This document shows positions 62 to 52,835 of a stretch of DNA of 64,000 nucleotides, one piece after another. The notes under the pieces are model-generated. The model did not search any database and had not been told where the DNA came from. It saw nothing but the letters and a program-made list of their open reading frames with translations. The DNA is from Natrarchaeobius oligotrophus. GTDB lineage: Archaea > Halobacteriota > Halobacteria > Halobacteriales > Natrialbaceae. Numbering within the stretch: position 1 is the stretch's first letter; the number at the start of each line of letters is the position of its first letter. The translations under genes and the position numbers were made by a program. The stretch lies in NCBI RefSeq assembly GCF_003841465.1, contig NZ_REFZ01000003.1, positions 248,001 to 312,000 of the forward strand. The letters are read 5' to 3'.

Positions 62-68
62 TATTTAA
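62..68 (+). promoter_or_regulatory. TATA-like box of structured RNA copy A
   Basis: An AT-rich TATTTAA sequence is centred 27 nt before the first GGAAGCC strand of the structured RNA. The same centre-to-strand distance is found at the two other copies, at about 8249 and 52359. Haloarchaeal transcription usually starts 25-30 nt after the TATA centre, so a transcript would begin at or beside the first paired strand. The rest of positions 1-90 is AT-rich and holds no gene that I can see. Confidence 0.5.
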
Positions 69-90
69 TGCCAGAGAGTGATGAGTTGCA

Positions 91-226
91 CGGAAGCCAG
101 TCCAGCGGGCATTCGTCGAGAAATGCCCGACGTGTTGCAGCACGTCGGACGCGGCTTCCGACTCCCCTCCAGGGAATCTAGAAGCCATGCGAAAAGACAG
201 CCCCCGAGCCCATAACTGTAGGGCTC
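91..226 (+). ncRNA. Structured leader RNA, copy A
   Basis: The sequence folds into a closing stem CGGAAGCC (91-98) with GGCTTCCG (153-160) around two adjacent hairpins. These are GGGCATT/AATGCCC (107-128) and CGACGTG/CACGTCG with a 6-nt loop (128-147). A third hairpin, GAGCCC/GGGCTC (206-226), lies inside the first small ORF. GGCTTCC can alternatively pair with GAAGCC at 181-186, directly before the ATG at 187. Copies at 8276 and 52386 have the same order of elements with different stem sequences that still pair, which points to selection for RNA structure. From memory it resembles the right-end/omega-RNA of haloarchaeal IS1341-type elements, but here it stands upstream of genes and has its own TATA-like box. 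Confidence 0.6.
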
Positions 227-7018: not shown

Positions 7019-7651
7019 CTAGTTCTCAGCATCCTCGATAGTCGGATAGAGCCGGTGTAGTTTCGTGCGAGCGTCTTCGTTTGTAAATTGCCAATTGACC
7101 GTGACATCCAACTCATTACGCTCAGTTTCCCACGCAGCGACCTCCGACTGGAGGGTCGCTGCGTCCGGAATTCTGCGGTTGAGACACTGAGTCTGGAGCG
7201 TGCTCCAGACGAGTTCGGCCATATTCAGCCAACTTCCGTGCGTGGGCGTATAGTAGAACTCGAACCGACCGAGATACTCGCGTGCTTTTTCGGGCGAGAA
7301 GAACCGATAGAATGCGGCGGGATTGTGCGTGCTGAGGTTGTCTAAGACTACCCGGATGCAGTCCGCATCCGGGTAGTCGTCCGCTATCGTCTGCATGCAG
7401 TCGATCCACTCACATGTCCGCCGACGTTCCGTCACGTGAAGGCGACACTGACCTGTCAACGGCTCAGTCGCCATGTGAAGCATTCGTTTCCCATTGCGTT
7501 CGTAGTGATGATCTACTCGAGCGACCGCTCCCGGTGTCGCCGGGAGCGGGTCGCGCACGTGCTTGCGAAGCTCCTTGCTAGATTCGTCGAAACAGATGAC
7601 CGGACGGCTTTCGTCGTACGGTTCTTGATACAGCGACAGGAGTGTTTCCAT
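7019..7651 (-). CDS. IS630 transposase, catalytic part (orfB)
   Basis: This frame carries the DDE catalytic core of IS630/Tc1-mariner transposases: ICFDESSKE (D22), VVLDNLSTHN (D104) and SWLNMAELVW (E146), counted from the ATG at 7651. The coding frame continues upstream of that ATG, through RSEYWLIPPKENAEFVYR, to a run of seven A residues near 7733 where the N-terminal frame has to shift by +1. So the active protein would be an orfA-orfB fusion, and the internal ATG is probably not the true start. The protein cuts and joins the element ends at TA sites. Confidence 0.75.
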   Translation of the reverse strand: METLLSLYQEPYDESRPVICFDESSKELRKHVRDPLPATPGAVARVDHHYERNGKRMLHMATEPLTGQCRLHVTERRRTCEWIDCMQTIADDYPDADCIRVVLDNLSTHNPAAFYRFFSPEKAREYLGRFEFYYTPTHGSWLNMAELVWSTLQTQCLNRRIPDAATLQSEVAAWETERNELDVTVNWQFTNEDARTKLHRLYPTIEDAEN

Positions 7652-7697
7652 GCGGTAGACGAATTCCGCGTTTTCCTTGGGCGGAATGAGCCAGTAC

Positions 7698-8150
7698 TCA
7701 GAGCGGTGTGGCTTCAGGTCGTTTTTTTAGCCGCCGTCGAACGGCTTCCTCGGAGATCGAGTCGAACTCGATCTCCTCGAGGGAAACGAGACGGTCAGCC
7801 AGAAGAGCGTACGTCCAGCGAGATCGGCCTTCGGGTGGCTCCGAACAGGCCAATGCGACGAGATGGGCTTCAGCTCGACCGTCAAGTTTCGGCTCGTAGT
7901 CTCGGTCGGGCTTGCGGCGGTGGATCGCCGCAAGCCCTCTCTCAGCGTACGCTTTGCGTGTCCGATAGGGCGAGGAAATTGCACAATTGAGGTGCTCACA
8001 GATCGTCGGATCTGTGAGCCCCTCGTCGGATTTCAGGAGAATCTTTGCTCGAGTGATTGCCTCGGCTCTGTGTTCGCCTTTCGAGACAAATCTCTTCAGT
8101 TCGTTCCGTTCTTCATTCGAGAGATCGACAACGTGCTTCTTCCGTCCCAT
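7698..8150 (-). CDS. IS630 transposase, DNA-binding part (orfA)
   Basis: The 150-residue frame holds the N-terminal helix-turn-helix region of the transposase (residues about 8-60: NEERNELKRFVSKGEHR, then ICEHLNCAISSPYRTRKAYAERGL) and the segment leading to the catalytic domain (RRRLKK). It ends at a TGA (7698-7700) 22 nt after an A7 tract. Reading past the tract in the +1 frame gives KNDLKPHRSEYWLIPP, which joins the catalytic frame. Either programmed frameshifting or an indel in the A tract explains the split. Confidence 0.75.
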   Translation of the reverse strand: MGRKKHVVDLSNEERNELKRFVSKGEHRAEAITRAKILLKSDEGLTDPTICEHLNCAISSPYRTRKAYAERGLAAIHRRKPDRDYEPKLDGRAEAHLVALACSEPPEGRSRWTYALLADRLVSLEEIEFDSISEEAVRRRLKKRPEATPL

Positions 8151-8244: not shown

Positions 8245-8252
8245 TTATATTA
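8245..8252 (+). promoter_or_regulatory. TATA-like box of structured RNA copy B
   Basis: TTATATTA is centred 27 nt before the first GGAAG strand at 8276, the same distance as in copies A and C. The element starts just outside the right end of the IS630 insertion, so the promoter itself is intact. Confidence 0.5.
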
Positions 8253-8275
8253 TCGACCAGTCCGATTGTTAGGAT

Positions 8276-8417
8276 GGAAGTCGTTCGCTCCGAAACGCGA
8301 CCGCGTGGGCGTGCACGTGAAAACGCCCCGGGTGGTGAGGCACCCGAGGCGAGCGGCTTCCAAGCGTACACTCGGTTGCCATGCTTACGTTCCTGCCACC
8401 GAGACAAAAAGGTCTCG
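8276..8417 (+). ncRNA. Structured leader RNA, copy B
   Basis: The first strand GGAAGTC (8276-8282) pairs with GGCTTCC (8355-8361), allowing one G-U pair, and encloses two hairpins. These are GGGCGT/ACGCCC (8307-8328) and CGGGTG/CACCCG with a 6-nt loop (8329-8346). A third hairpin, CGAGAC/GTCTCG (8400-8417), lies inside the following small ORF. Compared with copy A both inner stems have changed sequence on both sides and still pair. The competing strand next to the ATG is GGTTGCC here, so the alternative pairing seen in A and C is weak in this copy. Confidence 0.6.
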
Positions 8418-8563
8418 CACGACGGCTCAGTATCGCACGCGAAAACCGAACGACCACGGACGGCGCTCTCACGGACTCGAGCGACCGTGAGCGACGGCGC
8501 GACGCCCGAGAGAGCGGCGAACGACCGAGCATTGACCGTCGGCCACGGGGGTGGCGGCGATGA
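8381..8563 (+). CDS. Small basic ORF upstream of zinc-finger gene (copy B)
   Basis: This 60-residue arginine-rich ORF starts at the ATG after the structured leader and ends in ATGA shared with the zinc-finger gene at 8560. Its first residues, MLTFLPPRQKGLARR, match MFAFLPARYKRLARP of the small ORF at 52492 (FLP, R, K and LAR conserved). The conserved bases also form the third hairpin of the RNA, so the similarity may reflect RNA rather than peptide selection. The rest diverges. Function unknown; translational coupling to the next gene is likely. Confidence 0.45.
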   Translation: MLTFLPPRQKGLARRLSIARENRTTTDGALTDSSDRERRRDARESGERPSIDRRPRGWRR

Positions 8564-8799
8564 GTTCCGCGAACGACGCGGCCGATACCGCCGGCGTCGA
8601 CCGGCCCGCGACGGTCTGCGACCGCTGTGGCGACCGCCTTCCCGAGGATCGGGTGATCCGCCTCTCGAGCGACCCCTGTCCCGCGCTCGCCGACCGGTAC
8701 GAAGGCGTCGCCGAGACGTGCTGTCCCGACTGCATCGCGGGCATCGGCATGCTCGCGTTCACGGCCGAGGCTCGAGCGTTCGCGGAGACGAGATCGTAG
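8560..8799 (+). CDS. Small zinc-finger protein (copy B)
   Basis: The 79-residue protein has CDRC (C20, C23), C40 and a CCPDC group (C54, C55, C58), enough for one or two zinc sites. Small CPxCG-type zinc-finger proteins are abundant in haloarchaea and mostly uncharacterised. The start at 8560 rather than the in-frame GTG at 8551 was chosen because it forms the ATGA overlap seen at the two other copies. It is the second gene after structured RNA copy B. Confidence 0.6.
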   Translation: MSSANDAADTAGVDRPATVCDRCGDRLPEDRVIRLSSDPCPALADRYEGVAETCCPDCIAGIGMLAFTAEARAFAETRS

Positions 8800-52354: not shown

Positions 52355-52362
52355 ATATAAAT
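52355..52362 (+). promoter_or_regulatory. TATA-like box of structured RNA copy C
   Basis: ATATAAAT starts directly after the ilvA stop and is centred 27 nt before the first GGAAG strand at 52386, the same spacing as in copies A and B. It is the clearest TATA box of the three. Confidence 0.6.
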
Positions 52363-52385
52363 ATCTATTCGACGAATTGATCTCT

Positions 52386-52528
52386 GGAAGCTAGCTCCAA
52401 GAAGGCGCGGGGGCGTGCGCTGAAACGCCCCGGGTGCTGGAACACCCGAAGCTGGCTTCCAACCCATTACGGCTATAAAGCCACGGAAGCCATGTTTGCA
52501 TTCCTGCCCGCGAGATATAAACGTCTCG
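52386..52528 (+). ncRNA. Structured leader RNA, copy C
   Basis: GGAAGCT (52386-52392) pairs with GGCTTCC (52454-52460), with one G-U pair, around hairpins GGGCGT/ACGCCC (within 52410-52431) and CGGGTG/CACCCG with a 6-nt loop (52431-52448). A third hairpin, CGAGA/TCTCG (52511-52528), lies in the following small ORF. GGCTTCC can also pair perfectly with GGAAGCC at 52485-52491, which touches the ATG at 52492. The two folds are mutually exclusive. This copy lies in an ordinary chromosomal context, directly after ilvA, with no transposase gene near it. Confidence 0.65.
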
Positions 52529-52644
52529 CACGACCACAGTACCGTTCACGAGCCAGAAGCGACCGCCAGCGGGCCGGAACGGCCTCTCGACCGACGGGAT
52601 CGCAGCCGCCTCGAGCGGCCGGCCGAGTCGAGGGGCGGCGATGA
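52492..52644 (+). CDS. Small basic ORF upstream of zinc-finger gene (copy C)
   Basis: The 50-residue arginine-rich ORF starts at the ATG that follows the GGAAGCC strand and ends in ATGA shared with the gene at 52641. Its N-terminus MFAFLPARYKRLARP matches that of the copy B ORF. It may be a leader peptide. It could also be a chance frame over the RNA, since the matched residues coincide with conserved RNA bases. Confidence 0.45.
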   Translation: MFAFLPARYKRLARPQYRSRARSDRQRAGTASRPTGSQPPRAAGRVEGRR

Positions 52645-52835
52645 CGGGCTGTTTCTGGGCGGACGACCCGTTCGAGTCCGTCGACCCCGACGGCGACGAC
52701 GACGCCCCGACGCGCTGTCCGCGCTGTGGCACTCCCATCGCCATCGTCTCGAGCACCGGCCCGACCACCCACGTCGCCACCCCCTGTGGCTGTCGAGTTC
52801 CCGGCGACGTCCTCGAGCGCGACGGCTCGCGGTGA
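52641..52835 (+). CDS. Small zinc-finger protein (copy C)
   Basis: The 64-residue protein contains CPRC (C26, C29) and CGC (C49, C51) and an N-terminal GCFW, consistent with one small zinc site. The start overlaps the upstream small ORF as ATGA. It resembles the abundant CPxCG-type small zinc-finger proteins of haloarchaea. Sequence outside the cysteines differs from the copy B protein, so the two are at best distant relatives joined by the same leader RNA. Confidence 0.6.
   Translation: MTGCFWADDPFESVDPDGDDDAPTRCPRCGTPIAIVSSTGPTTHVATPCGCRVPGDVLERDGSR

Follow-up and report, generated by a model that had tools for sequence, protein, structure and literature searches.

A candidate bistable mRNA leader with its own promoter in genomes of Halobacteriales

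Known structured leaders and the haloarchaeal element

Translational riboswitches in bacteria usually mask the Shine-Dalgarno sequence. Three-way-junction riboswitches (purine, TPP) resemble the haloarchaeal element described here in that a covarying junction closed by a helix P1 lies in the 5' leader, and P1 shares its 3' strand with another helix, at the initiation region. They differ from it in several respects. The haloarchaeal element is a candidate without a known ligand, its second helix abuts the AUG and hides no Shine-Dalgarno sequence, small zinc-binding proteins stand behind a coupled small open reading frame (ORF), and there is no Rfam class for it.

Fluoride was the ligand of the only archaeal riboswitch established experimentally according to a 2021 paper (PMC8241225), and control by structured leaders was judged not typical of haloarchaea in a start-site map of Haloferax volcanii (PMC4983044). 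Structured cis-regulatory leaders of ribosomal-protein genes have been described in Archaea, including Halobacteria (Eckert and Weinberg, 2020; PMC7247131). In contrast to these, the present element precedes genes other than those for ribosomal proteins among those examined, is found in tens of copies per genome and is absent from Rfam; no ribosomal-protein gene was seen downstream among the products scanned. Leader-peptide, attenuation and coupling systems also contain a short basic leader ORF whose stop overlaps the next start, but here the switch precedes the small ORF, and no run of codons for a single amino acid was noticed. The proteins encoded downstream resemble the zinc-finger micro-proteins of H. 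volcanii, which are small and carry paired CPxCG motifs (PMC6562870; PMC11241148), although the texts searched gave no description of a common leader RNA for the latter. The element itself is not described in the open-access texts searched; subscription papers lay outside that search, and an earlier description is possible.

The window analysed here is a 64,000-nt stretch of Natrarchaeobius oligotrophus DNA (contig NZ_REFZ01000003.1) with three copies of the element, all on the forward strand. It is probable, at roughly three chances in four, that each copy comprises a promoter and a bistable structured 5' mRNA leader that sets the translation of a small ORF and of the zinc-binding protein coupled to it. 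The comparative evidence covers the covariation of both helices, the promoter spacing, a hairpin (P4) inside the small ORF and the overlap of the ORFs. A conserved bistable leader of this kind, present in 141 of 392 genomes of the order Halobacteriales and in up to 35 copies per genome, would change the view of leader control in haloarchaea. It would also offer a natural handle on haloarchaeal initiation without a Shine-Dalgarno sequence, and would connect one regulatory signal with many small zinc proteins that are as yet unstudied.

Promoter and predicted transcript start

A constant distance between TATA box and RNA had been noted in a sequence-only reading of the window, and it was found again in all three copies. 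The centre of the box lies about 27 nt 5' of the motif GGAAG, whose first G is at 92, 8276 and 52386 in copies 1, 2 and 3, and the T of the TATA core lies at 62, 8246 and 52356, which is -30 from that G in each case. The promoter of copy 1 (55-68) consists of a BRE-like stretch at 55-59 and a TATA box at 62-68. The boxes of copies 2 and 3 are at 8246-8252 and 52356-52362.

In 97 close copies from Natrialbaceae, 20 of them from this genome, T is found at -30 in 95, A at -29 in 87, T at -28 in 93 and A at -27 in 90. The top TATA match lies at -30, or is tied there, in 90 of the 97; CAGTA is conserved at -37 to -33, and the spacer is nearly free, with most columns from -24 to -12 below 0.5 bit. 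The 79 remote copies were obtained as sets of 38 and 41. An A/T box at -31 to -26 is present in 76% of the 38, which come from other families and have unrelated spacers, compared with a fraction of at most about 0.2 in windows shifted by more than 6 nt; in the 41 further copies, detected with a second model (R2), the peak (73%) is at -32 to -27. The remote box is thus at the same distance or 1-2 bases further upstream in unrelated surroundings, which argues that the spacing is selected and not merely inherited. On these comparisons, shared ancestry alone does not explain the TATA spacing.

Primer extension of haloviral promoters has placed the BRE at -37 to -33 and the TATA box near -26 from the start (PMC8707807). 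If this spacing is applied here, transcription would start at the first G or within about 2 nt of it, that is at about 90-92, 8274-8276 and 52384-52386. As in haloarchaeal TATA/BRE promoters, the TATA box then lies about 26-30 nt before the predicted start, with the BRE just 5' of it. A separate promoter for every copy is very probable, with a predicted transcript start at the paired strand; both had been proposed earlier, and both are backed, by inference, by the fixed spacing in close and remote copies. Palindromes around CTAYRTAG or CACGTG occur between the TATA box and the predicted start in many diverged copies (L319, L344, L347, L350, L165). Their likeness to repressor operators suggests that there may be regulation at the level of transcription too.

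Structure of the leader

GGAAG pairs with CUUCC in helix P1, which closes a three-way junction with two more hairpins, P2 and P3. The leader of copy 1 (91-161; P1 strands 92-98 and 153-159) scored 63.7 bits with R1, a junction model built from ten copies, and 57.0 bits with R2, and its fold had a z-score of -4.0. The leader of copy 2 (8275-8363; P1 strands 8276-8282 and 8355-8361) scored 51.5 bits with R2, at an E-value of 9.4e-10 that is rough, as are all E-values of these models. The leader of copy 3 (52385-52462; P1 strands 52386-52392 and 52454-52460) scored 79.3 and 69.9 bits with R1 and R2 respectively.

In 47 diverse matches, 93% of the junction cells were paired and changes on both sides occurred in 17 of the 21 junction pairs. 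The covariation of the junction was 0.46, compared with at most 0.09 in slid and 0.16 in shuffled controls, in an alignment that was fitted to the model's own structure and therefore favours it. Despite this fitting, a real structure is very likely in view of the slid controls and the mixture of pair types. The apex of P3 (GUG-NURNNN-CAC) is invariant and loop 2 is A-rich. No family of Rfam 15 reached its gathering score in the window or in 20 diverged loci.

A predicted competing helix before the start codon

The more important feature, absent from the sequence-only reading, is a second, mutually exclusive helix predicted at the start codon. The 6-7 bases directly 5' of the first AUG can pair with the 3' strand of P1 as well, in a helix termed P1'. 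The strand AGAAGCC (180-186) of copy 1 abuts the AUG and can pair with GGCUUCC at 153-159, and GGAAGCC (52485-52491) of copy 3, which also abuts the AUG, makes all 7 of 7 pairs with GGCUUCC. In copy 2 the strand before the AUG, GGUUGCC (8374-8380), is weaker, with 5 of 7 pairs and a UU mismatch. P1' is likewise weaker, at about 4-5 of 7 pairs, in this genome's zinc-finger type I subset, which is of the copy 2 type (GGUUGCC-AUG).

In the diverged set, P1' had a mean of 5.95 of 7 pairs, compared with 5.30 ± 0.09 when the pre-AUG segments were dealt to other copies, and none of 5000 shuffles reached the observed mean; in the 41 held-out copies (found with R2) the mean was 5.80 of 7, compared with 5.15 ± 0.09 and a maximum of 5.56 for the shuffles, which overstate independence because the copies are related. 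Of four offsets for the pre-AUG strand the best was used, with equal freedom for the shuffles. Among 67 distinct strand triples, P1' was 84% paired (70% when shuffled) and P1 90% (77% when shuffled), each above all 1000 shuffles, and at least 5 of 7 pairs are kept in both helices by 76 of the 79 diverged copies. The pre-AUG strands (GAAGCC, GAAGACC, GAACCC, GAAACC, AACAGCC and others) vary along with the 3' strand of P1, as in the covarying pairs GGCUUC/GAAGCC, GUCUUC/GAAGAC, GGGUUC/GAACCC, GGUUUC/GAAACC and GCUGUU/AACAGC. In nearly all copies P1' ends 0-2 nt 5' of the AUG.

Because one strand is common to P1 and P1', the two helices are mutually exclusive, and since one of them ends at the start codon, a translational switch is indicated. 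P1 is predicted to be energetically favoured in most copies, by a median gap of 3.3-4.2 kcal/mol with a wide range across copies, at 37 °C and 1 M NaCl; the cytoplasm of a halophile is molar KCl.

Small ORFs and coupled genes

The AUG typically lies 10-30 nt 3' of the junction. In the Natrialbaceae type it opens a small basic ORF (MxxxLPxRxKRLAR...), and in other haloarchaeal families the small protein that it opens directly is of SWIM, CxxC or another type; on plasmid unnamed4 of Haladaptatus pallidirubidus, the leader AUG is the annotated start of a SWIM gene. Since the junction is followed directly by an AUG, and the small ORF that this opens is coupled to the downstream gene, the element is an mRNA 5' leader, and the earlier view of it as an RNA in its own right was not upheld.

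In copy 1, the stop of the small ORF (187-453, 88 aa) overlaps the ATG at 450 of a second ORF (450-635, 61 aa, with Pro/Thr repeats), whose stop in turn overlaps an ATG at 628. A short coding repeat, CCCGACAACCCCACCACCAAA, at 541-600 of this second ORF gives rise to TTKPDNP repeats. In copy 2, the small ORF MLTFLPPRQKGLARR (8381-8563, 60 aa) has an ATGA overlap with the gene of a zinc-finger protein (8560-8799, 79 aa, CDRCG..CCPDC). Similarly, in copy 3 the small ORF MFAFLPARYKRLAR (52492-52644, 50 aa) has an ATGA overlap with the gene of another zinc-finger protein (52641-52835, 64 aa, CPRCG..PCGC). The ORF of the CxxC protein begins at the stop of the small ORF in 78 of the 97 close copies, through ATGA or GTGA (offset -1) in 58 of the 78 and at offset -5, five bases 5' of the stop codon, in 13. 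Second starts have a Shine-Dalgarno-like sequence before them in 54 of the 78, compared with 3 of 97 for the first AUG and a background of 13%.

In the Natrialbaceae type, hairpin P4 lies inside the small ORF, from about 20 nt past the AUG. Its strands are GAGCCC/GGGCUC in copy 1 (206-226), CGAGAC/GUCUCG in copy 2 (8400-8417) and GCGAGAU/GUCUCGC in copy 3 (52510-52529). The codons TAT (26/26), CAT (20/20), CAA (30/30) and AAA (86/86) are used in P4 without exception, compared with 15, 7, 12 and 43% respectively. Such invariant use of rare synonyms indicates that the RNA structure is conserved rather than the peptide. An obvious P4 is mostly missing in diverged copies (f17, f4 and f5).

Proteins of several unrelated families (CPxCG, SWIM, TnpB-like, winged helix) are encoded downstream and have the leader in common. 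Pfam and NCBIfam searches with them gave weak zinc-ribbon and SWIM matches only and no clue to a ligand. The ORF that starts at the leader AUG ends, by eye, in a winged-helix domain like that of phage-type repressors at two loci, L036 (C69, in this genome) and L316; this arrangement is read as a small ORF fused to its partner.

Proposed switch and alternative explanations

The transcript would begin at P1, at about the first base of the helix, and its very 5' end would form this outer stem. The leader would fold as the three-way junction of P1, P2 and P3; with P1 formed, the AUG region would be free and translation permitted, which is most likely the default. If the junction opened, the AUG-proximal strand would capture the 3' strand of P1, the AUG would abut the hairpin P1', and initiation would be hindered. 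The overlapping ATGA would pass the setting of the small ORF to the zinc-binding protein by translational coupling. Some signal (protein, metabolite or ion) would stabilise or open the junction; alternatively, a ligand might tip the balance of P1 and P1' the opposite way. We infer the transcript start and the effect on translation from sequence, and the direction of switching from folding order and energies. From the gene content, zinc would be the obvious guess for the signal, and no more than that.

One variant of the proposed switch, with a protein as the signal, has a little less than even odds: the product of the small basic ORF, or the zinc-finger protein, would bind the leader and shift P1/P1', autogenously or in trans. 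The downstream products are small, basic or zinc-binding, the invariant P3 apex and A-rich loop 2 resemble a binding surface, and a single genome holds many paralogous copies. However, the small ORF is not conserved in its C-terminal part, and the downstream families are unrelated although the leader is common to them.

More tentatively, the leaders may represent a widespread ligand-sensing riboswitch class of Halobacteria with tens of members in a genome; it would act on initiation at an AUG that lacks a Shine-Dalgarno sequence and, through coupling, on small zinc proteins. Like a translational riboswitch, the element has a conserved folded domain in the 5' leader and an exclusive helix that reaches the initiation site; masking of a Shine-Dalgarno sequence was not found, such a sequence being rare before the first AUG (3 of 97). 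Few unpaired positions are conserved other than the P3 loop and an AA in loop 2; this is little for an aptamer that binds a metabolite.

It is unlikely that P1' instead helps initiation, as a stem at the AUG that recruits the ribosome or marks a cleavage to leaderless mRNA. The distance of 0-2 nt from stem to AUG and the avoidance of Shine-Dalgarno sequences there would suit such a role, and leaderless initiation is common in haloarchaea (PMC4983044), but a competing stable P1 would then be needless, yet P1 and P1' are both conserved.

Distribution and genomic context

Model R1 gave 21 sense-strand matches in this genome at E < 1e-4, and a broader model gave the same 21; relatives contain from 0 to about 35 copies per genome. 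Hits at E ≤ 0.01 were obtained in 141 of the 392 Halobacteriales genomes. In a phylum-wide sample of 294 genomes, 18 had hits, all of them Halobacteriales, and none was found outside this order. Hosts include Natrialba, Natrinema, Halopiger, Halovivax, Natronobiforma, Halostagnicola, Haladaptatus and Natrarchaeobius. The viral contigs and phages searched contained no leader matches, and a viral origin was rejected on this ground.

A leader unit of about 440 bp appears to spread. It is present on plasmids of Haladaptatus and Natrialbaceae. The gene upstream of copy 3 is present in two relatives (G002 and G007), where the leader copies lie elsewhere. Species of one genus (G000-G003) have 3 to about 20 copies each, which are non-syntenic. 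Haladaptatus plasmids, for example NZ_CP085339.1, carry up to ten matches per plasmid, often with SWIM zinc-finger genes. One locus (L126, G024:C1:1570000-1577000) contains three to four tandem leader units spaced about 1.5-1.7 kb apart, which suggests local duplication. An IS630-like transposase of two ORFs (HTH_32, then DDE_3) lies directly upstream of copy 2 on the minus strand (7019-8150).

A dispersed, MITE-like DNA repeat whose inverted repeats merely look like RNA would fit the patchy occurrence among related species and the non-syntenic copies, up to about 35 per genome. This explanation is very improbable: the promoter is strand-specific at a fixed TATA distance, the AUG and the ORF overlap are kept, the three strands covary in remote copies, and no terminal repeats were noticed beyond the unit.

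The TnpB-like neighbour of copy 1

The ATG at 628 in copy 1 opens the gene of a TnpB-like protein (628-1329, 233 aa; Cas12f1-like_TNB, E = 5.9e-12) with an orthologue at L111. The RNA lies 467 nt upstream of this ORF, and the other copies of this genome are not at TnpB. The earlier distinction from RNAs of the tnpB 3' end is supported, as the RNA is upstream of the TnpB-like gene and, among the 97 close copies, only copy 1 and the orthologous locus L111 precede one. The N-terminal half of the protein is missing, while the GVDLG, TED and HADYNAA motifs and the CxxC pairs are kept. Its gene is within the operon of the leader and is conserved in a second species (L111).

The adjoining TnpB-like gene at one leader copy is a likeness to the omega-RNA of TnpB, from which the leader differs in its own upstream promoter, its upstream position and its mostly other genes; an omega-RNA or transposon RNA was rejected on position and gene context. 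Least probable of all is a non-coding RNA that stands alone, for instance a TnpB guide of the omega-RNA kind; this reading could draw on the RuvC-like residues of the protein downstream of copy 1 but is opposed by the leader's place upstream and not at a tnpB 3' end, by the absence of TnpB at nearly all other copies, and by the AUG 10-30 nt downstream, the ORF overlap and the hairpin inside the ORF. A coiled-coil protein (1501-2397 in the window; also L111 and L128) follows the copy 1 type of operon in different species, and the genes between the two differ, being TnpB-like or not.
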